This document shows positions 44,042 to 55,284 of a stretch of DNA of 64,000 bases, piece after piece. The stretch lies in NCBI RefSeq assembly GCF_013415885.1, contig NZ_CP058910.1, positions 558,001-622,000 on the forward strand. The letters are read 5' to 3'. The notes beneath the pieces are model-generated. The model was not told where the DNA came from, ran no database searches, and was given only the letters and a program-made list of their open reading frames with translations. Position numbers and translations under genes: made by a program. The stretch's first letter is position 1, and each line of letters begins with the position of its first letter. The stretch comes from Halosimplex rubrum (GTDB lineage Archaea; Halobacteriota; Halobacteria; Halobacteriales; Haloarculaceae).

Positions 44042-44422
44042 TTATGGTTGAGTGACTGTGAGTTTGTTCTCGGCCCGTAAACTAACTACCGGAACGCCGG
44101 CGTCGAGCAGCCGGCGCTTGAGCGGACCGTCGTTCGTGACCGCGTGCGTGACGCCCTCGCGCCCGGCGACTTCGACCACCGCGTCGTCGGCGTAGCCCTC
44201 CTCGTGGCCGACCGACTCACAGCGGTCGGCCGCGAGATCCAGCCCGACGCTGGCCGCCGTCGCCTCTTCGCCCCGCCCGTCGGCGAGCTTCGCGAGCTCG
44301 TCGCGGACCGCCTCGGGGACCAACAGATCGGACCCACCGAGCAGCCGCTCCAGCTCCTCGAACACGCGAACGTCGCATTCGACGGGCATCATCAGTGCGT
44401 TCGTGTCCATGACGACGCTCAT
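44042..44422 (-). CDS. PIN-domain ribonuclease-like protein
   Basis: A 126-residue PIN domain. The acidic triad or tetrad is visible: [11 protein letters not shown] (first Asp), [11 protein letters not shown] (Glu), [10 protein letters not shown] (Asp) and [12 protein letters not shown] (fourth acidic residue). This resembles Fcf1/Utp24-like archaeal PIN proteins linked to ribosomal or other RNA processing, rather than VapC toxins. No antitoxin is adjacent. The start overlaps the eIF2-gamma stop in ATGA. Its conserved neighbourhood with translation and transcription genes supports housekeeping RNA maturation. Confidence 0.88.
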
Positions 44423-45651
44423 TCCCGCAGCGTGCCGATGCCGATGAGCCGCCAGCGGCCGCCCAGCCGTCGGTTGATGGCGATCTTCGCGCCCTCGCGG
44501 GCGCAGACCGGTCGCTGGAGCGCGACCTCGGCCTCGCCGCCCCGGGCGCTGGTGACCGACCCGACCGTCGTGGCCGTGCCGATGGTCATCATCAGCGGCT
44601 CGCCCGTCGAGATCTCCTCGACGTCGCTGGCGTTCTCGCCGACGATGCGGTCCAGGAGATCGACGTCCATCGTGAACTGCTCGTGGGTCGGCGGCAGCGT
44701 CCCCGGCGGTCCCGCGACCTGCCCGGCGAGCGCGTCGCCCTTCGTGATGGCGGGGTCGAGTCCCGTGCCGACGCCCAGCAGGCCGCCGGGCGTGGCCGTC
44801 TCGACGGTGTCGCCGCCCGCTTGCAGCGACCTGACGGTCGTCTCGACGGGCTGCCACTCGGACTGGCCGCCCTCCTCGACCTCGCGGCCGGGGCGGAGCT
44901 GGATCTCGTCGTCGGCCTCGAGTTCGCCCTCGACGAGCGACCCGCCGAGGACGCCGCCCAAAAGCGAGTCCCAGGTCGTCCCCGGGCGGTTGATGTCGAA
45001 GCTGCGGGCGACGAGCATCTCCGCGTCCGCGTCGGGGTCCCGATCGGGCGTCGGGATCTCCCGCTCGACGGCGTCGATGAGGAGATCCATGTTGACGCCC
45101 TGTCCGGCGCTGATCGGGACGATGGGAGCGTCCTCGGCGACGGTTCCCTCGACGAACTCCTGGATCTGCTGGTAGTTCTCGCGGGCCTGCTCGGCGTCGA
45201 CCAGGTCGATCTTGTTCTGGGCGACGACGATGTTGTCGATGCCGATGATGTCCAGCGCCATCAGGTGTTCCTCGGTCTGTGCCTGTGGGACGTCCTCGTT
45301 GGCGCTGACCACCAGCACCGCGCCGTCCATGATCGCCGCACCGGAGAGCATCGTCGCCATCAGCGTCTCGTGACCCGGCGCGTCCACGAACGAGACCGTG
45401 CGCAGCACGTCCGTCTCCGTATCGTGCTCGCCGCAGGTCTCGTCGACGGTGTACGCGTCGGGGACCTCCCCCTCCGGACACTGCCGGAACGTCGCGTCGG
45501 CGTAGCCGAGGCGGATCGAGATCCCGCGTTTCATCTCTTCGGAGTGTTGGTCCGTCCATTCGCCCGACAGAGCTTGCACCAGCGTCGTCTTGCCGTGGTC
45601 GACGTGACCGACGAGTCCGATGTTCACCTCCGGTTGTGTGTTCGTCGTCAT
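44419..45651 (-). CDS. eif2g: Translation initiation factor 2 subunit gamma (eIF2-gamma)
   Basis: A 410-residue translational GTPase. G1 is [10 protein letters not shown] at residues 16-25, switch [12 protein letters not shown]4 QNKIDL and G5 ISAGQ. A zinc-knuckle region lies between ([19 protein letters not shown]) with fewer Cys than some orthologues. Domains II and III end with the K-I-A-I-N-R-R family motif ([20 protein letters not shown]). It delivers initiator Met-tRNA to the ribosome with alpha and beta subunits encoded elsewhere. It leads a five-gene operon to DPCK. Confidence 0.97.
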
Positions 45652-45754
45652 CTCGAGAGTAATCTTGGGGAATCTTCGCCCTCTGCGACTGATAAACCTA
45701 CTGTTTGCGCCCGTGGAACGCGCCGCGGTGGCACCCGCCACCGCCCGCGCCGCC

Positions 45755-46314: not shown

Positions 46315-47214
46315 ATGAGCGGAGCCAGCGACGAGGCCGGCGAAGAGGGCGACGCCGCCGAGGTCGACCCCGCGGAGGCGTTCGGCGTCGTCGCCAACGA
46401 GACCCGTCTGGACATCCTGGAGGCGCTGTGGCGCGCCGACGACCGCCCCGTGAGCTTCTCGGCGCTGCACGACGACGTGGCGATGCGAGACAGCGCGCAG
46501 TTCAACTACCACCTCCAGCAGCTCACCGACCAGTTCGTCGCGAAATCCGACGAGGGCTACGACCTGCGCCACGCCGGCGCCCAGGTCGTCCGCGCGGTCC
46601 GCGCGGGCACGTTCACCCGCACGCCGGACGTCGACCCCTTCGCGGTCGAGGGCGCCTGCACCCGCTGTGGCGGCGGCCTCGAAGCCCGCTACGCCGACGA
46701 GCAGTTCCGCGTCGACTGCGTCGACTGCGGGAAGTCCCACGGCGAGTACGAGTTCCCGCCCGGCGGACTGGTCGACCGCACCGACGCGGAGATCGCGACC
46801 GCCTTCGACGAGCGGGTCCGCCACCTTCACTGTCTCGCGGCCGACGGCGTCTGCCCCGCCTGCGCCGGCCGCATCCACACCGAGATCGTCCGCGGTGGCG
46901 ACTGCTGTCTCGACGTCGCCCTGCGCGTCGAACACGTCTGCGAGCGCTGTCGCAACGAACTCTGTTCGCCGGTAGGGCTCGTCCTGCTGGACGAATCGGT
47001 GGTCTCGGCGTTCTACGAGGACCACGGTATCGATCTGTCCTCGCGTCCGTACTGGACGCTCCCGTGGTGCGTCGACGACGAGTACACGACCGTCGAGAGC
47101 GTCGACCCCTGGCGGGTCACCGTCGAGATCCCGCTGGCCGACGACCGCCTGACGGTCACGCTGGACGGCGACCTCGACGTGGTCGACAGCCAGTGCCACT
47201 CCTGCGAGGGGTGA
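46315..47214 (+). CDS. ArsR-like winged-helix regulator with zinc-ribbon C-terminal region
   Basis: A 299-residue protein. The N-terminal wHTH (about 18-95) has FGVVANETRLDILEALW, DSAQFNYHLQQLTDQFV and a wing GYDLRHAGAQV. This is the haloarchaeal family that joins an ArsR/HTH_20-like domain to treble-clef or zinc-ribbon modules. CTRCGGG...CVDCGKSH, CPACAGR, CERCRNELC and the final C-H-S-C-E form several Cys pairs. The C-terminal part probably binds a ligand or metal. It lies directly upstream of the pilin-like operon (gap 162 nt, same strand), so it is a candidate regulator of it. Confidence 0.8.
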   Translation: MSGASDEAGEEGDAAEVDPAEAFGVVANETRLDILEALWRADDRPVSFSALHDDVAMRDSAQFNYHLQQLTDQFVAKSDEGYDLRHAGAQVVRAVRAGTFTRTPDVDPFAVEGACTRCGGGLEARYADEQFRVDCVDCGKSHGEYEFPPGGLVDRTDAEIATAFDERVRHLHCLAADGVCPACAGRIHTEIVRGGDCCLDVALRVEHVCERCRNELCSPVGLVLLDESVVSAFYEDHGIDLSSRPYWTLPWCVDDEYTTVESVDPWRVTVEIPLADDRLTVTLDGDLDVVDSQCHSCEG

Positions 47215-47287
47215 CCACCCCCCGTCCCGCGCCGTGTCCACCGCCCCGTTTCGACGCGGTCCCCGCCACTGGGCGGGAGAAGGGATC

Positions 47288-47338
47288 CGTTACTCGCAGT
47301 AAGCCGGCGTTACTAGCGAACCGACGTTACGCCGTAAC
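47288..47338. promoter_or_regulatory. Triple CGTTAC motif upstream of the pilin-like operon
   Basis: CGTTAC occurs at 47288-47293, 47308-47313 and 47325-47330 (20 and 17 nt apart). The last forms the palindrome GTTAC-gcc-GTAAC to 47338. Spacing near two helical turns puts the copies on one DNA face, 40-90 nt before the GTG/ATG region of the operon. Likely binding sites of a regulator or activator. Confidence 0.5.
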
Positions 47339-47376
47339 AATCATACTGGTGGACATCAAACCCACGCGGTATTCGA

Positions 47377-47895
47377 ATGGTGGATCGCGAACGGAGACAG
47401 GCGGGGGAATCGCCGGGAGGGGGGTCGCGACTCGGGGCGGCCGACCGGGGGCAGACACTGCACGATTACACGGTCGGTATCAGTCTGTTCATCATCACCG
47501 TCAGCACCGTGCTCGTCGGGCTGTTCGGCTTCGTCGGCCCGCTGTCGACGGGCGTGGGGAGCGAGGAGGTCTCGCAGTCCGAACGGATCTCGACGGCGCT
47601 GGTCCAGAACCTCTCGACCGGCCGGCAGCCGAACGAACTGCGGGCCGGCCTGTTGACGACGGCCCTCTCGCGCCCGGAGACGCAGTTGCGGACGCGATGG
47701 GGACTCGAACGGTCGACGCGGTTCAACGTCACGTTCACGACGCTGAACGGGAGTCGGATCGTGACCGGCGGCGGGACGAAGCTCGCGGCCGGTTCGAACT
47801 ACGAGGGGAACGCGGCCGGCTCCACCGCCCGGATCGTACAGTTCGACGACGGAACCTGTCGACCGGCGTGTCGGCTCACCGTGAGGACGTGGTAA
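47377..47895 (+). CDS. Pilin-like exported protein 1 (class III-type signal)
   Basis: A 172-residue protein. A polar Gly/Ser-rich leader of about 27 residues ends in ADRGQTLHDYTVGI, followed by the hydrophobic helix SLFIITVSTVLVGLFGFV. This is the pattern of archaeal type IV pilin-like proteins cleaved by the PibD peptidase. The C-terminal domain has N-linked glycosylation sequons (NLS, NVT, NGS) and a short disulfide-type loop, TCRPACRLTV. It is first of five closely packed genes in one direction. A haloarchaeal DUF family; role unknown. Confidence 0.7.
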   Translation: MVDRERRQAGESPGGGSRLGAADRGQTLHDYTVGISLFIITVSTVLVGLFGFVGPLSTGVGSEEVSQSERISTALVQNLSTGRQPNELRAGLLTTALSRPETQLRTRWGLERSTRFNVTFTTLNGSRIVTGGGTKLAAGSNYEGNAAGSTARIVQFDDGTCRPACRLTVRTW

Positions 47896-47896
47896 C

Positions 47897-48526
47897 GTGT
47901 TCGACGACGCGCGCGGACAGGCGTTCACGCTCGAAGGGCTCGCGGCGTCGCTCGTGTTGCTCGGCGCGCTGCTCTTCGCGCTCCAGGCGGTCGTCGTGAC
48001 CCCGACCACCAGCGGCGATGTCGACCAGTCCAGTCAGGTCGACCTCCGGCAACAGGCCGACGACATCCTCCTGTTGAGCGCCCGCTCCGACGACACGGAC
48101 CTCTCGTCGCTCGTCCGCAACTGGTCTCAGAGCCAGCGGACGTTCGCCGGTGCCGTCAACCCCCGGATCGGGTACGGTCCGGAGCCGCTCCCCGGGAGAG
48201 TCGGGGTCATGCTGAACCGGACGTTCACCCAGCGGTCGCACTTCTTCAACCTCGAGATCACGTACCGCCCCGGTGACCTCGGGAACGAGACCGAGTCCAT
48301 CCCGGTGGCCTACCGCGGCGAACCGTCCGACGACGCCGTCTCAGCGAGCTACACCGTCACGCTCTACGACAACCAGACGCTGACCGCGCCCAACGTGTCG
48401 CGAAACGTCGAGCTCTGGCAGTACGACACGAACGCCACGAACAGCGCGGACGGCTACTACCCGATCCCCAACGCCGTCGAGGGACCGATCTACAACGTGG
48501 TGGAGGTGCGCATCGTCGTATGGTGA
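47897..48526 (+). CDS. Pilin-like exported protein 2
   Basis: A 209-residue protein, start GTG one base after the previous stop. The N terminus MFDDARGQAFTLEGLAASLV leads straight into a hydrophobic helix (LLGALLFALQAVVV), the prepilin-like layout, with Glu near position +5 of the mature form as in pilins (TLEG). The ectodomain is beta-rich and has NRT, NQT, NVS and NAT glycosylation sequons. The stop overlaps the next gene by 7 nt. Confidence 0.7.
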   Translation: MFDDARGQAFTLEGLAASLVLLGALLFALQAVVVTPTTSGDVDQSSQVDLRQQADDILLLSARSDDTDLSSLVRNWSQSQRTFAGAVNPRIGYGPEPLPGRVGVMLNRTFTQRSHFFNLEITYRPGDLGNETESIPVAYRGEPSDDAVSASYTVTLYDNQTLTAPNVSRNVELWQYDTNATNSADGYYPIPNAVEGPIYNVVEVRIVVW

Positions 48527-49485
48527 GCGAGGTCACGCGCCGGCGAGCGCAGATGATACTGATCGGCGCCGTCACGTTCGCGGCCGTCATCATCGGACTG
48601 ACCGTCATCATCAACAGCTACTTCGTGACCCAGAGCGGCGTCGTGTCGGACGTCTCCCCGCAGATAGACGAGGCCAACGAGTTCGAGTACGAGTCGCGCA
48701 AGGGCGTCCGCTCGCTCGTCGTGCGGCTCAACCACCGCCACCGGAACCTCTCGGCGACGGACCTCGCCACGGTCATCTCCCGCAACACGACCGTCTACAG
48801 GGACCTGATGGCCGAGTCGTACGCGAGTTCACGCGGCGAGTACGTCACGGTATCGTACGTCAACGACAGCTCCCAGTTCGGGTCGCGGGTCGTCCAGAGC
48901 GCCGACGCCAACGTCACGTCGAACCCACCCGCAAACCAGAGCGAGTGGGTGATCGGCCGCCCCGCCGAGACGAGCAACCTCGGCTGGTTCACGATGAACG
49001 TGAACGTCCAGGAGACGAGCGAGACGCCGATGTGGATCAACGTCACCAACGCGAGTTCCCACTGGGTCAACGTCTCGATGCACAGGACGACCGCGGGGTC
49101 GGGGGAGAACCTCAGAGTCACGTCGAACGTCAGCAGCGCGGGCAACACCTCGACGCTCTGTGACCCCTCGCGCGACCGCGTGCTGCTCGACCTGGTCGAC
49201 GGGTCCGCGTTCACCAGCGACTGCCGGTTCAACGCGACGACGGCCATCGCGCCGCCCTACCGGGTCTCGGTGTCCGGCGGCGAGAACGCGGTCGCCAAGT
49301 ACGAACTCGTCTACAACGAGACGGCCGACTCCGCGCACTACGAGGTGTGTGACTCGTCGGTCGCGCGGACCCAGCCCTGCCGGACCCCGGCGGTCTGGGT
49401 CGCGAACGTGACGACGCAGTTCAGCGGGAGCGAGCTCACGTACGCGAACGAGTACAACATCACGGTGTACGAGGAGGCACGATGA
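48520..49485 (+). CDS. Pilin-like exported protein 3
   Basis: A 321-residue protein. Basic leader VSEVTRRRAQMILIGAVTFA precedes one N-terminal membrane helix (AAVIIGLTVIINSYFV). A large glycosylation-rich ectodomain follows with many N-x-S/T sites (NLS, NTT, NVT, NVS, NTS). Two paired cysteines (TLCDPSRD...SDCRF, and VCDSSVARTQPC) probably form disulfides. It overlaps both neighbours, 7 nt at the start and 4 nt at the stop. Confidence 0.65.
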   Translation: MVSEVTRRRAQMILIGAVTFAAVIIGLTVIINSYFVTQSGVVSDVSPQIDEANEFEYESRKGVRSLVVRLNHRHRNLSATDLATVISRNTTVYRDLMAESYASSRGEYVTVSYVNDSSQFGSRVVQSADANVTSNPPANQSEWVIGRPAETSNLGWFTMNVNVQETSETPMWINVTNASSHWVNVSMHRTTAGSGENLRVTSNVSSAGNTSTLCDPSRDRVLLDLVDGSAFTSDCRFNATTAIAPPYRVSVSGGENAVAKYELVYNETADSAHYEVCDSSVARTQPCRTPAVWVANVTTQFSGSELTYANEYNITVYEEAR

Positions 49486-52130
49486 CCCACGGATTCACCG
49501 ATCGAGGCGTCTCGACACAGATCTCGCACGTGTTCGGTATCGCGATCACCACGCTCCTCATCGTCGTGCTGGTGAGCGGCGTCACCGGGTTCGTCCATGA
49601 CGAACGGGCGACCATCGCCGACTCGCAACTCGAGACGGTCGGAAACCAGCTCGCCTCACAGGTCGAACGCGTCGACGAACTCGGACAGCACGGCGGGAAC
49701 GTCTCCGTCGAGACCTCGGTCGACTCGACCGTCGTCGGGACCGACTACCGGGTGCGGATAGCCGACGGGGAGGCGTGTCAGACCGGCACCTTCCACACCG
49801 ATTCCTGTCTCGTCCTCGCCGGGACCGACATCGACGCGAGCGCGAAAGTCCCGCTGAATCTCACGACCGACGTGGGGATCGAGGCGAACGCCGGCGGTCG
49901 GTTCCGGCTCAGCGTCGTCGACTCCCCCGCGAGCACCGGGACGGTCCAACCGCTCGTCGACCGCCAGCCCAGGATCGGGATCGGCAGTTCGTTCGAGGTC
50001 GACCGCTTCGGGACGGTCGTCAGCCCGGTCAACCGCCCGCCGATCGCGAAGTTCACGTTCTCGCCCGGGATGCCCCGGAGCGGCAGCGAAGTACGCTTCG
50101 AGGCGGGCGAGTCGTTCGACGCCGACGGCGAGATCGTCGCCTACAAGTGGGACTTCGGCGCCGACGGGACGTTCGACGCCCTCGGGCGGAACCTCTCGCG
50201 GTCGCTCGATCCCGGCCCCCACGAGGTGACGCTGCGGGTCGTCGACAACGAGGGCGGGACCACCAACGTCACGCGGCGGCTCAGGGTCTCCGGCCTGGCG
50301 TACGGCGGCGACCTGGACGACACGAACGACGGCGCGGACGGCGGCGGCGAGAGCGCGCTCACGTTCTCCGTCACCAACGAGTACCCCGACACGGTCGACA
50401 CGTCGGTCGAGATCGTCGAGATCCTCGTCGACCCGAAAGACGACTCGCTGACCGAGCTGGAGAACGACTGTGACGACGGGGGTAACGACTGCCTGTTCGG
50501 CGAGTGGGACAACGACGAGGAGATCCTCGTCGACGACGGAGACGACGGGACCGTCGATTCGAGGACCGCGACGGACGACTACATCCCCGCTGGAGGGCAG
50601 ATCATCGAACTCGAGGACCCGGTGCGCGTGTCCGACGGCGATAGCGCCCGGTTCTGGATCGGGCAGTTCGCCGAGGGCGACCTGACCGACGCCTTCGATA
50701 TCGGGGTCAGATACCGGGTCGACGGCCGGATGAACTCGACCCTGGTCACCGACGTTCCCGGGAGCCCCAACGTCGACGACGTCCAGATCGAACACGAGGC
50801 CGACGACGACGTCAACCTCGTCGTCCTCGCGGACCGGCAGCTCGATACGGTCGAATTCGACCTCGGCGGCGACCTGAGCGGGACCGCGACGGGTATCGAC
50901 AGTACGACCGCTACCGGCGACCTGTACCGCCACGAGCTGAACGTCGTCGGATCGCTGTCCAGCGGGACCGTGAAGGCGAACCTCACTGTCGCCGAGGCGG
51001 GCGGCGTCCCCGCCTTCGAGACGCGCGGGTCGAAGACGATAAACGAGTCGCTGGCGGTCCTGAGTGGTGACTACGTCTGGCAGTCCCCCGGCGACTGGGA
51101 CGGGGCGACCGACTCCGAGGGCGTCGTCCACGCGTCGTTCGGCGACCGCCAGAGCGACCGGCTCGCGCTGGGCTACCCCGCCGCCGACCAGTTCGGGTCG
51201 GGGCTCGCGGGCTACTGGTCGCTGGACGGGACCGCAGACGATGCCACGGGGTCGGGACTCTCGGGTTCGATGGTCGGCGGCCCGGGAAGCGACCTGGGTG
51301 TCTTCGGGACGGCGAGCTACCAGTTCGACGGGGACGACGACTACGTCGACATCGGAGACGACCTCGGGGACGTCCACCGAGGCACGTCGTCGCTCTCGGC
51401 GTGGGTCCAGACGGCCGCTTCCGGGAACCCGCAGACGTGGCAGTCGCCCGGTATCCTCGGCATCGAAGAGAACGGGGGCACTGACGACATCTTCTGGGGA
51501 TGGGTCGACCAGTTCGGCCAGATAGGCATTCAGGCGGGCGACAGCGCAGCCGCGATGAGTTCGACGGAGATCGACGACGGGCAGTGGCACCACGTCGCCA
51601 TGACCTACAACGCGTCGACGGGCCAGGAACAGGTGTTCGTCGACGGCGACCTCGAGGACTCGGTGACGACCAGAACGGGACCGACAGGTACCGACTTCGG
51701 CAGTATCGGCCGCATCGAGGACACCGCCGGCTCCGAGGAGTACTTCGACGGGAACCTCGACGAGGTCCGGTCGTACGACAGGGTGCTTTCGGCGTCGGCG
51801 GTCGAGGAACTCGCCGACCTGAACGGGACGCTGACGACGGGATGGCAGTCGGGGACGCAACCGCTCGGCCCGTCGAACGCCTCGCTCCAGTACGCGGCGG
51901 ACATCCCGTCGGCGACGGGTATCAACGTCACCGTCGCGGCCGATTACGACGGCGACGGCACTGCGGAGGAACGCAGCGACGTGATCGAACTCCGCGACGG
52001 ACAGAACGCGGTCGACGTGACCGGCCTCTCGGGCACGGCCCGTGACTTCCGGATCGAGGTCGAACTCGAGACGGGGTCTGTGGTCAAATCACCGACGCTC
52101 AAGCGGGTCGGCCTCACGGAGGACGCATGA
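49482..52130 (+). CDS. Large pilin-like surface protein with PKD and LamG-type domains
   Basis: An 882-residue protein. After a leader FTDRGVSTQISHVFGIAITT and a membrane helix (LLIVVLVSGVTGFV) comes a pilin-type ectodomain with a Cys pair (EACQTG...DSCLVLAG). A PKD domain follows at about 185-265 (AKFTFSPGMPRSGSEVRFEA, then KWDFGADGTF). A concanavalin-A/LamG domain occupies about 565-770 (GYWSLDGTADDATGSGLSGS, QFDGDDDYVDIGDD, WHHVAMTYNASTG, NLDEVRSYDRVLS). LamG folds typically bind glycans or proteins. Together these suggest an adhesive tip or surface anchor. Confidence 0.85.
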   Translation: MTHGFTDRGVSTQISHVFGIAITTLLIVVLVSGVTGFVHDERATIADSQLETVGNQLASQVERVDELGQHGGNVSVETSVDSTVVGTDYRVRIADGEACQTGTFHTDSCLVLAGTDIDASAKVPLNLTTDVGIEANAGGRFRLSVVDSPASTGTVQPLVDRQPRIGIGSSFEVDRFGTVVSPVNRPPIAKFTFSPGMPRSGSEVRFEAGESFDADGEIVAYKWDFGADGTFDALGRNLSRSLDPGPHEVTLRVVDNEGGTTNVTRRLRVSGLAYGGDLDDTNDGADGGGESALTFSVTNEYPDTVDTSVEIVEILVDPKDDSLTELENDCDDGGNDCLFGEWDNDEEILVDDGDDGTVDSRTATDDYIPAGGQIIELEDPVRVSDGDSARFWIGQFAEGDLTDAFDIGVRYRVDGRMNSTLVTDVPGSPNVDDVQIEHEADDDVNLVVLADRQLDTVEFDLGGDLSGTATGIDSTTATGDLYRHELNVVGSLSSGTVKANLTVAEAGGVPAFETRGSKTINESLAVLSGDYVWQSPGDWDGATDSEGVVHASFGDRQSDRLALGYPAADQFGSGLAGYWSLDGTADDATGSGLSGSMVGGPGSDLGVFGTASYQFDGDDDYVDIGDDLGDVHRGTSSLSAWVQTAASGNPQTWQSPGILGIEENGGTDDIFWGWVDQFGQIGIQAGDSAAAMSSTEIDDGQWHHVAMTYNASTGQEQVFVDGDLEDSVTTRTGPTGTDFGSIGRIEDTAGSEEYFDGNLDEVRSYDRVLSASAVEELADLNGTLTTGWQSGTQPLGPSNASLQYAADIPSATGINVTVAADYDGDGTAEERSDVIELRDGQNAVDVTGLSGTARDFRIEVELETGSVVKSPTLKRVGLTEDA

Positions 52131-52876
52131 GACTCCACGACGACGACCGCGGCGTCCGGAACCTGGTCGGATTCACGCTCACGTTCGCTATCATCGTCGT
52201 CGCCGTCGGATTCGTGGCGACGACCGGGTATCAGCAACTCGGCGACCTGAGCCGGAACGAACAGCTCGACAACGCGGAGTCGGCGATGGAGCTGGTCGCC
52301 TCGGACGTTCGGCAGCTCGAGGGGAGCCAGGCCGTCGTCCGGACGAACGACCTGTCGCTGTCGGGCGGGTCGCTGACGGTGCTCGACGGACCGACGATGC
52401 GCGTCAGGGCGGAGAACACCGACTTCGACCGGACGTTCGACATCGGTGGCCTCCAGTACGCCTACGGACGGTCGACGATCACCGTCGAGAACGGCGGCGT
52501 GTTCTGGACGAACGGCGAGGGGAACACGGCGACCGTCGACCGCCCGGCGCTCACCTGCACCGACGAGCACGCGATGGTGTCGGTCGTCCGCCTGACGCCG
52601 GCGTCGACCGCCCAGACCGGCGCCGACTACGTCTCGGTCACCACCGAGCGCCAGTCGAGCGAGCTCCGGTTCCCGATGAACCGGACCGGACCGGACAGCG
52701 CGGCCGCCGCCGACGAACTTCGGGTGACGGTCTCGTCGCCGCGGTCGGCGGCCTGGGGACGATACTTCGAGAGCGCGGGGAACTGGACCGCCGCGGCCTC
52801 GCCCGACACCTATCGCTGTGACGGGATCGACGCCATGTACGTCCGCGAAACGGTCGTGTCGGTGTCGATCCGATAG
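52127..52876 (+). CDS. Pilin-like exported protein 5
   Basis: A 249-residue protein. The leader RLHDDDRGVRNLVGFTLTFA gives the R-G-V cleavage-type motif, followed by the helix AIIVVAVGFVATTG and the heptad-like NEQLDNAESAMELVASDVRQ. The beta-rich ectodomain has two cysteines (LTCTDEH and YRCDG). It begins in an ATGA overlap and closes the operon. Gene 6 on the other strand converges on it. Confidence 0.7.
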   Translation: MRLHDDDRGVRNLVGFTLTFAIIVVAVGFVATTGYQQLGDLSRNEQLDNAESAMELVASDVRQLEGSQAVVRTNDLSLSGGSLTVLDGPTMRVRAENTDFDRTFDIGGLQYAYGRSTITVENGGVFWTNGEGNTATVDRPALTCTDEHAMVSVVRLTPASTAQTGADYVSVTTERQSSELRFPMNRTGPDSAAAADELRVTVSSPRSAAWGRYFESAGNWTAAASPDTYRCDGIDAMYVRETVVSVSIR

Positions 52877-52967
52877 CCGAGCGGAGCGCGCACGAGCGGA
52901 TAGCCCGTCGGTGGGTCTCGATCCGGTGGCCCGCGGTAGAAGCGCCGATCCGGAACCCCGGTGGTTC

Positions 52968-55178
52968 TCAGCCGGCGACCCGAACGTCGTTGACTCTGAC
53001 GTTGACGATCCCTTCCGGTGTCGCCTCGGACTCCGCCAGCCCGACCTGATACAGCAGGACCAGACGGTTCGTGGAGTTGGTCCCGTCGGGGTACTCGAGG
53101 ACGACCAGCGCCTGGTTGCTCTTCATGTGGGTGATGTTGGAGGTGGTGTTGAGTCGCACGTCCGACCGGGAGTCGATCGCGTCTCTGACCGACTCCTGCC
53201 ACCAGGCGGGGTCGTCGCGCTCGAAGAACGTGGTCATGTTTTTACCGTCGAGGAACACCGACGCGTTGCCGGCGCCGACGGCGTCATCGCGCGTGGTCAT
53301 GTTCGAACATCTGGTGACCTGATAGGTCGAGCCGTTGTGCGACCGGGTGATCCCCGTCCCGCGCCACTCGGCGCAGTTGTACGTCGAGGCGTTGAACGAG
53401 ACCGTCTCGTTGTCGGTGACCGCGAAGGCGTGACTGAACAGCGTCGGTGACGTCGGGTCGTTGATGTTGAGGTACCGCGTCCCGTCGGTGACGTTGACCG
53501 CGACCCGGTCGGTGTCGCCGGCGATCTGGGGCGCGTACGCCCCCCCGGCGCCGGTCTGGAGACTCGTCGACGTGGGGAGCCGCGCGATCTGCTTGGTGCT
53601 GGAGATGCGGGTCGCGATATTGACGAACACTTCCGAGAGGTCGTCCTTGTCGCTGGCGTAGTAGTACTCCCCGCCGGTCGTCGTAGCAATCTCCTGTAGC
53701 ACGGATTCGTTGAAGTCGCCGGTCGACTGCCCGAACCCGACGGTGTACACAGCTGCATCCTGCTGAGCGGACGTGGAAGCTCGCTGTTCTGCCGCCTCGT
53801 TGGGATCGCCTGAGTCGATCCCGTCCATCGTGTGCCCGTTGAACTCTCCGTCGGAGAGGAAGACGACGATGCTTTCTCGGGTTTGGTTGCTCTTGAGGTG
53901 TTGCAGGACGTTCGCCACGTCAACGCCGGCGCTCCCGTAGGTCGACACATACGAGTTCGCCGGTCCGGTTGTATCGACAGTCGAGTTGAACGCGTCGCTC
54001 GGCGGGGTCAGGTATCTCCCGTGAGTCAGGTACGGCCACGCCGCATCCGATCCGTCGGTGTACGACGGACCGGCACCCGGCTGGGAGTAACCGACCAGAC
54101 CGACTCTGTCCTTTGACGCGTTCAGTTGCCCGGTGAACTGTTTTATCGCGTCCTGTGCGGCTTGGATCTTTCTGACCCCGTCCGATGTCGTACTCAGCAT
54201 CGATCCGGACTCGTCGACGACGAACACCACATCCAGCGGCGGTCCGGTGACGTTCTGGGCGTCCTCGATGCGTCGGATCTGGCCGATGTCGACGCGGTTC
54301 TTCGAGAGCGCCTCGACGTAGACGCTGTACTGGTTGCTGGTGTTTTTAGTGACGCGGACGGTGTTGCCGTCGATCTCGACGTCGTCCATGTACGGCGCCC
54401 CCGACATGTTGATGACGTGGTTGCGGCTATCGTCGACGCGCCGGGGGAGTCGATCCTGCGTCAGCGTGACCCGGACCGTCCGGTTCGAGTCGAACGTCTC
54501 GGGTTCGGTCCCGAGTTCCGCCGCCAGATACTGGCCCCACGCCTCGTAGAAGTCGCTCCGGACCTCGACCGTGACGTTGTTCGGCCGGGCGCAGGTTCCC
54601 GTGATGACCTGCTGGGACCGCCGCACCGACTCGCGCTGGGAGGTCGTCGCGTTGTAGAACGCCCGGTTGTTGGCGTTCGAGACCTCGCCGGTCATGTTCG
54701 TCACCGCGATGTCGAGGCTCCCGTTGCGGAACTGGAAGTCCGGTGCCGTCTGCATCGCGCTCCCCTCGTCGCCGCCGACCCAGACGCCGCCCGCCTCGTA
54801 GGCGACGGTCTCGTCGTCGGCGTTCTCGTATCGTATCGAACTCAGCGGGATGTTCGTCGCGCACGTCGCGTTCTCGTTGACGGTGACGTTCAGGAACCCG
54901 TCGCGGACGAGTCGGGCCCTGTTTCGTTCCAGTTCGCCGAGCGAGAACCGCTCGCGGGCCGAGTACTCCGAGTTGGTCAGCGTCGCGAGTTTCGAGTCGG
55001 CCCCCTCCATGACGACGCGTGCGCTCGTATCGGCCCGGTCCTGCTGGAGCGACTCGATGACCGTCGATCCGCCGTACAGGACCAGCATCGCCCCCACCAA
55101 CACCAGCCCGATCAGTATCACCATCCCGATGATGCCCGTCTGCCCCCTCGCGTCCGCGCTCTTCCGGTTCGTTCCCAT
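52968..55178 (-). CDS. Pilin-like VWA-domain surface protein
   Basis: A 736-residue protein. The leader KSADARGQTGIIGMVILIGL is prepilin-like (R-G-Q before a hydrophobic helix). A VWA domain is embedded at about 300-510. Its MIDAS motif is intact (VVFVVDESGSMLSTTSDG, then a downstream Thr-rich region, YGSAGVDVANVLQHL and VFLSDGEFNGHT). VWA domains bind ligands through a divalent metal. The ectodomain has Cys pairs and many N-x-S/T sites. It converges on the pilin-like operon and shares its N-terminal architecture. The ATG at 55178 is chosen; a TTG at 55187 would add three residues. Confidence 0.88.
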   Translation of the reverse strand: MGTNRKSADARGQTGIIGMVILIGLVLVGAMLVLYGGSTVIESLQQDRADTSARVVMEGADSKLATLTNSEYSARERFSLGELERNRARLVRDGFLNVTVNENATCATNIPLSSIRYENADDETVAYEAGGVWVGGDEGSAMQTAPDFQFRNGSLDIAVTNMTGEVSNANNRAFYNATTSQRESVRRSQQVITGTCARPNNVTVEVRSDFYEAWGQYLAAELGTEPETFDSNRTVRVTLTQDRLPRRVDDSRNHVINMSGAPYMDDVEIDGNTVRVTKNTSNQYSVYVEALSKNRVDIGQIRRIEDAQNVTGPPLDVVFVVDESGSMLSTTSDGVRKIQAAQDAIKQFTGQLNASKDRVGLVGYSQPGAGPSYTDGSDAAWPYLTHGRYLTPPSDAFNSTVDTTGPANSYVSTYGSAGVDVANVLQHLKSNQTRESIVVFLSDGEFNGHTMDGIDSGDPNEAAEQRASTSAQQDAAVYTVGFGQSTGDFNESVLQEIATTTGGEYYYASDKDDLSEVFVNIATRISSTKQIARLPTSTSLQTGAGGAYAPQIAGDTDRVAVNVTDGTRYLNINDPTSPTLFSHAFAVTDNETVSFNASTYNCAEWRGTGITRSHNGSTYQVTRCSNMTTRDDAVGAGNASVFLDGKNMTTFFERDDPAWWQESVRDAIDSRSDVRLNTTSNITHMKSNQALVVLEYPDGTNSTNRLVLLYQVGLAESEATPEGIVNVRVNDVRVAG

Positions 55179-55284
55179 ATGACCCAAATCTTGTTCCCAG
55201 TTGCGGATGGCCGATCAAAAGTGTATCGGTGAGATGACTCGTCCCCGCCTGCGTCGCCGACGGCGCGGGGATCGCCGTCAGCGC

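Follow-up and report, generated by a model that had tools for sequence, protein, structure and literature searches.

The closest described relatives of the locus treated here are the pilus loci of Euryarchaeota and a pair of modular pilins in Streptococcus sanguinis. Euryarchaeal PilB loci come with pilin sets of their own, and motors have been proposed to be shared between pilin sets (Makarova, Koonin and Albers 2016, PMC4858521). In S. sanguinis, PilC combines a pilin with an Ig-like module and a ConA-like lectin and has been shown to bind glycans, and PilB combines a pilin with a vWA module that bears a metal ion-dependent adhesion site (MIDAS) and has been shown to bind proteins. Together they are thought to form a tip complex, with tip adhesion as the proposed role (PMC9934059, PMC8179133). 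The modular pilins surveyed in PMC8179133 were identified by a bacterial N-terminal signature, and the word archaea did not turn up in its text. Here we describe a six-gene locus at 47377-55187 of a 64,000-nucleotide stretch of Halosimplex rubrum DNA (NZ_CP058910.1, positions 558,001 to 622,000; hereafter the window). We consider it likely that this locus provides the long-PilB (PilB4-like) type IV pilus of haloarchaea with a second pilin cassette, one that lacks a motor of its own and acts as an interchangeable grip.

The cassette consists of five co-directional genes, with a 1-base gap after the first and then overlaps of 7, 4 and 4 bases, and of a sixth gene that converges on them. Genes and recognised domains are as follows:

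47377..47895, + strand: gene 1, DUF7287 prepilin-like protein of 172 amino acids (aa) (PF23958, E=2e-28); leader ..ADRG/QTLHDY, then a hydrophobic helix
47897..48526, + strand: gene 2, DUF7288 prepilin-like protein, 209 aa, GTG start (PF23959, E=3e-54)
48520..49485, + strand: gene 3, DUF7261-like prepilin-like protein, 321 aa (PF23922, E=0.15, sub-threshold)
49482..52130, + strand: gene 4, predicted giant modular pilin, 882 aa, with DUF7266, PKD and LamG/ConA-like lectin (Pfam)
49497-49889, + strand: DUF7266 pilin part of gene 4 (PF23928, 4.8e-16)
50031-50282, + strand: PKD domain of gene 4 (PKD_4, 7.6e-12)
51327-51803, + strand: LamG/ConA-like lectin domain of gene 4 (Laminin_G_3, 1.9e-20)
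52127..52876, + strand: gene 5, DUF7289 prepilin-like protein, 249 aa (PF23960, 5.4e-40)
52968..55187, - strand: gene 6, predicted convergent modular pilin, 739 aa, with DUF7289 and VWA (PF23960, 8e-19; VWA, 1.7e-13)
53628..54233, - strand: VWA head of gene 6 with a complete MIDAS (D-x-S-x-S, T, D)

An earlier note on this DNA had described an operon of five genes, overlapping or one base apart, and all five open reading frames (ORFs) are indeed present at the expected coordinates. It had overlooked the sixth, which keeps the same place beside the cassette in orthologous (window-type) cassettes of other genomes and which we therefore count as part of the unit. The note had also read the overlaps as a sign of a fixed-ratio complex, which gene overlap does not imply. 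The weak Pfam match of gene 3 is complemented by a profile grown from gene 3 itself, which matches the same-position gene in 72 of 76 cassettes. The functional modules sit on pilin moieties, LamG and PKD on DUF7266 and VWA on DUF7289; plain DUF7266 orthologs are only ~145-200 aa long, compared with 882 aa for gene 4.

Of these families, DUF7288 is present in 138 of 145 sampled Halobacteria genomes, including the H. volcanii control genome. H. rubrum has two copies, one in the window and one at 2,099,555. The latter belongs to an operon (the 2.09-Mb operon) with the order Lrp regulator, aminotransferase, pilB (840 aa), pilC and an opposite-strand gene, followed by a pilin set of DUF7287, DUF7288, DUF7261-like, DUF7266 (195 aa), DUF7289 and a convergent DUF7289-type gene. 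By this comparison the window holds the same pilin set in the same order, convergent gene included, minus pilB and pilC and with two members enlarged. As the earlier note had stated, no pilus ATPase gene lies nearby: the 4.48-Mb genome contains seven matches to PF00437, the nearest of them ~469 and ~512 kb from the window ends. One match elsewhere in the genome (L007, G000:C1:1639790-1640050) has two in-frame stops and is probably a decayed pilB-like or VirB11-like gene.

Cassettes in other genomes were identified with profiles grown from the H. rubrum proteins and applied to loci sampled by DUF7288. The DUF7266 and DUF7289 profiles drifted to all pilin N-termini on iteration, so the assignment of genes relied on best score and position; start sites of ORFs in relatives were set mechanically, which makes lengths approximate. 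The set was recovered in these loci, with the DUF7261-like gene absent in a few, and it occurs in the same order beside pilBC both in the H. rubrum genome and across Halobacteria. Among 88 cassettes, congeners included, pilBC lies immediately ahead of 56 and faces 2, and the other 30 are orphans (L091 was scored as linked, its pilB lying just beyond the retrieved stretch); the sample was deliberately enriched in the family of H. rubrum, and these fractions are not class-wide frequencies.

Within that family, 19 of 28 genomes combine two or three DUF7288 cassettes with a single long PilB, and the other 9 have one cassette. A tree of concatenated cassette proteins resolves two main clades, and the window and 2.09-Mb cassettes fall into separate, well-supported ones. 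Each of the 19 multi-cassette genomes has one second-clade cassette and at least one first-clade cassette. The clade that pilBC adjoins is the first in 18 of the 19, and the second in H. rubrum and its congeners. The H. rubrum motor nevertheless branches, in a PilBC tree, among motors tied to cassettes of the first clade, which is that of the window. Whichever cassette follows, pilBC keeps its Lrp and aminotransferase neighbours in most family members, and in one genome (G041) the PilBC proteins are ~0.01-0.02 substitutions per site from those of its sisters, yet stand beside a different cassette. The clade trees, the fixed anchor and G041 together indicate that the motor stays while the cassettes beside it change, and this is our main argument that the window cassette is probably served in trans. 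Next to its linked cassette, the G041 locus (L079, 12614-16300) also retains part of a second one: an intact DUF7287 gene and a fragment of DUF7289. This looks like the result of a deletion that followed cassette replacement.

Sharing of motors between euryarchaeal pilin sets has been proposed (PMC4858521) and partly shown by cross-complementation, and in H. volcanii PilB3-C3 rescues a pilB1-C1 deletion (PMC6491452). Given such sharing and seven PF00437 matches, the cassette might instead be served by a different PilB of H. rubrum, such as the PilB3-like protein encoded at 3.72 Mb, which by analogy builds PilA pili, and merely decorate those pili. We regard this as unlikely, since every linked cassette examined adjoins the long PilB type, and 5 of the 7 genomes without DUF7288 also lack the long PilB.

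The window-type orthologs, which form one supported clade, point to the same motor. Named matches come from Halosimplex pelagicum, H. aquaticum, Halapricum, Halorhabdus and Halorientalis. Halosimplex was checked to belong to the Haloarculaceae, and we take the other three genera to belong there too. Orthologs lie behind pilBC in L029, L035, L039, L048, Halapricum hydrolyticum, two Halorhabdus and Halorientalis salina, and in the last of these (L110) the LamG pilin and pilBC form one co-directional block. The earlier note had suggested either a distant machine or a stand-alone surface assembly. Comparative genomics supports the first, and the machine can be named as the PilB/PilC pair at 2.09 Mb. 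The second, a membrane-anchored, bindosome-like complex that needs neither PilB nor PilC, would fit the lack of any motor gene within ~469 kb and the persistence of orphan cassettes in many genomes, including a one-cassette genome (G002) whose only cassette (L015) is unlinked. However, G002 also retains pilBC, standing alone (L085), and window-type orthologs, one of them LamG-bearing, are co-directional with pilBC in several genera of Haloarculaceae; within Halosimplex pilBC is linked to another cassette, which shows that linkage has moved from one cassette to another. A stand-alone complex thus appears quite improbable.

The same orthologs bear on what the cassette might bind. All those checked combine DUF7266 with PKD (in L111 the DUF7266 part was undetected by Pfam), and DUF7289 with VWA where scanned. 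The domain after PKD is LamG in the Halosimplex-type loci, L106, L110 and L111 and a ricin-B lectin in L035; Pfam recognised nothing after PKD in L029, L034, L039, L048, L107, L108 and L109. Because two unrelated carbohydrate-binding folds occupy the same slot, glycan binding may well be the conserved role. As a prediction, the ‘adhesive giant’ of the earlier note is therefore borne out by PKD and LamG in gene 4 and by the ricin-type lectin in the same slot of a relative. Separately, pilBC in other Haloarculaceae (L077, L078, L022/L080) adjoins genes for very large proteins (1874-2267 aa) whose N-termini are of the DUF7289 pilin type; the two that were scanned, L077 and L078, have CARDB repeats, and L077 also has PPC and VWA.

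The pilin-like character of the products was assessed from leaders, glycosylation sites and structure models. Genes 1-5 each encode a single N-terminal hydrophobic stretch behind a short charged leader. By inspection, the leader ends in G or A before the hydrophobic helix in all six genes, as RG in five and as RRA in gene 3. Cleavage at these points would give mature N-termini of QTLHDY, QAFTLE, QMILIG, VSTQIS, VRNLVG and QTGIIG for genes 1-6. The R-G/x motif that had been claimed for all five forward genes holds for four (DRG/QT, ARG/QA, DRG/VS and DRG/VR), but gene 3 has RRA/QM. Heavy N-glycosylation, likewise claimed for all five, agrees with an excess of N-x-S/T sequons over shuffled sequences in genes 2 (6 against 1.7), 3 (14 against 5.0) and 4 (11 against 4.5), but not with the counts for gene 1 (3 against 1.2, reached by 110 of 1000 shuffles) or gene 5 (2 against 1.9). 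Gene 6 has 24 against 9.1. The curated archaeal pilin N-terminal models gave no match for genes 1-5; gene 6 scored 15.7 bits with one of them, TIGR02537 (cut-off 20), and the L110 ortholog 23.2 bits with Pilin_N (cut-off 25.2). The model of the gene 5 DUF7289 protein (predicted local distance difference test score, pLDDT, 87.7) has a single helix at residues 7-65 followed by beta strands, a layout expected of a pilin. With the class-III-type leaders and the adjacency of these families to pilBC in 58 of 88 cassettes, this layout favours the pilin-like assignment made in the earlier note. One ORF in the genome, at ~790.7-791.6 kb, is a candidate prepilin peptidase.

Several observations weigh against our interpretation. 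Foldseek found no significant match for the DUF7289 model in the PDB, which leaves the long N-terminal helix and context as the grounds for a pilin fold; a PDB profile search with DUF7289 also found nothing. The AlphaFold model of the 882-aa protein is weak overall (pLDDT 61.9), with an N-terminal helix at residues 8-69 and a well-predicted PKD region. Two genomes (G044 and G073; loci L086 and L087) have a long pilBC at the usual anchor and no detectable DUF7288 cassette, so the pairing of motor with cassette is not strictly obligate. Finally, the trees come from a quick search, with support from the Shimodaira-Hasegawa-like approximate likelihood ratio test (SH-aLRT) only.

The cassette occupies a defined chromosomal slot:

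47215..55270: exchangeable slot, bounded by the gene for the DUF7351 regulator (ends 47214) and that for DUF5787 (starts 55201)

At this slot, four of eight genomes of the genus have the window type (H. rubrum itself, G000, and G149, G145 and G151) and the other four have a distant cassette in the opposite orientation, which falls in the other main clade. In the latter four, identity to the window is 87-93% in the flank that ends at 47215 and 80-89% in the one that resumes near 55270. On a tree of the flank DNA the distribution of the two types requires three changes, of which two or more fall on well-supported branches, and either type formed one clade in 0 of 200 bootstraps. From this tree, the whole block was replaced at least twice among the eight species, and since all six genes move together they are supported as a functional unit. 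The opposite orientation raised the possibility of an invertible, shufflon-like element, which we rejected because there are no silent copies and no strong flanking inverted repeats; long near-perfect inverted repeats were also not found. For locating the slot in other genomes, a conserved anchor is provided by a gene a few genes away, at 44419-45741 of the window, which reads as translation factor aIF2 gamma.

Exchange also occurs on a finer scale. Compared with the sister species H. pelagicum (G149), genes 1, 2 and 5 are 95-98% identical and genes 3 and 4 92-94%. In gene 6, identity is 95-96% over residues 1-320 and 522-739 but only 47% over residues 324-518, the VWA domain. Fourfold-degenerate sites differ at 18 of 168 and 13 of 121 positions in the two flanks (0.107 each) and at 29 of 45 (0.64) in the head. 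Saturated synonymous change with such sharp edges shows that the VWA domain was replaced by recombination. Rapid point evolution under selection could also give boundaries that coincide with a domain, and surface adhesins often evolve fast, but it would not saturate fourfold sites inside the head while sparing the flanks, and we consider this explanation highly unlikely. Nine orthologs, down to 32% identity, all retain the MIDAS residues (D325, S327, S329, a T, and D446). In 35 pairs of similar cassettes, no other interior drop is as strong as that at VWA; a further low value, at an ORF start, is likely a start-site artefact. The LamG domain of G151 is 28% identical where its neighbours are 59-76%, and still scores as LamG; its synonymous sites (6 of 19) give no clear signal. 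No close silent copy of either VWA head was found in the H. rubrum or H. pelagicum genome, which points to exchange between species rather than switching within a genome.

Ahead of gene 1 lies a conserved stretch:

47326..47376, + strand: conserved upstream element, palindrome GTTACGCCGTAAC and string ACAATcATACTGgTGGA, from the aligned upstream regions of four congeners

The palindrome is unique within the window, and the core of the element is kept in four congeners, two of which are only ~76% alike in coding sequence. This element is probably the promoter/operator of the cassette. The bordering gene (46315-47214) encodes a DUF7347/DUF7351 helix-turn-helix (ArsR-like) protein that is kept in 8 of 8 congeners whichever cassette follows, and is a possible regulator of the slot.

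Such conservation also speaks against a functionless, decaying duplicate of the 2.09-Mb operon, which might be suspected because the cassette has no motor genes of its own and because cassettes come and go. Its reading frames, all six of them intact, share 92-98% identity with those of the sister species except in the VWA head, the MIDAS is invariant, and the promoter region is conserved across four species. A recent duplication was rejected, because the two cassettes lie in separate clades. We give decay almost no credence.

In the mechanism that we propose, the prepilin peptidase would cut all six products, and the single long PilB/PilC pair, ~1.5 Mb away beside the paralogous cassette, would feed them into the pilus. 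Their most likely place would be in a tip complex of minor pilins and not in the shaft, because one member has 882 aa and the only cassette of a relative (G089) encodes an enlarged DUF7266. The PKD-LamG head on DUF7266 would be suited to glycans, and the VWA-MIDAS head on DUF7289 to protein or metal-dependent ligands. Species swap the whole cassette at the fixed slot, and the VWA head, by recombination, and these swaps would be expected to change what the pilus binds. More tentatively, members of the family may each combine a single long-PilB motor with a pool of exchangeable tip cassettes whose lectin and VWA heads can be swapped. Recombination at a dedicated slot would diversify this pool, which would act as a system of species or partner recognition in aggregation, mating, substrate interaction or virus interaction.

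The cassette gives five haloarchaeal families of unknown function, one of them near-universal in the class, hypotheses for their function, and the bacterial pair of lectin pilin and vWA pilin an archaeal counterpart. Because the sister species differ mainly in one head on a 92-98% identical cassette, they may represent a natural head-swap for what an archaeal pilus recognises. Species with two cassettes and one motor allow a direct test of whether several pilin sets share a motor. The earlier note called the system undescribed, which holds only in part: the families are named Pfam DUFs, and PilB loci with dedicated pilin sets and the sharing of motors were already described in 2016 (PMC4858521), but we found no description of the lectin/VWA cassette or its exchange. 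In the literature searched, which covered few subscription papers, there was no report of archaeal lectin or vWA pilins and no mention of the DUF numbers of the cassette families.

Among known systems, S. sanguinis PilC/PilB (PMC9934059, PMC8179133) shares the combination, in one locus, of a pilin with an Ig-like domain and then a ConA-like lectin and a vWA pilin with a MIDAS. The Halosimplex cassette differs in using the archaeal pilin families DUF7266 and DUF7289 and an archaeal PilB; the likeness is one of architecture, we claim no sequence relation of the pilin parts, and binding is here a prediction. In the PilV shufflon of R64/TP114 (PMC9045228), as proposed here, a minor type IV pilin changes its binding partner when its adhesive C-terminal part is exchanged, but the Halosimplex exchange is between species and not by inversion, with no silent heads or inverted arrays found. 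The Ups pili of Sulfolobus (PMC7064770) provide an archaeal type IV pilin in which a variable region sets species-specific recognition of surface N-glycans. There it is a short region of a presumed major pilin; in Halosimplex, whole lectin and VWA domains would do so on presumed minor pilins, in a recognition role that we only propose. The PilB4 type of H. volcanii (PMC4858521) is likewise a Halobacteria-specific ATPase with extra domains, accompanied by PilC/TadC and several dedicated pilins. There too motor and pilin sets evolve separately, and a minor pilin, arCOG02911, of which DUF7289 is the putative equivalent, is prone to duplication and length variation. The window cassette differs from that type in being detached from its motor, in bearing lectin and VWA heads on two of its members, and in being exchanged as a block.

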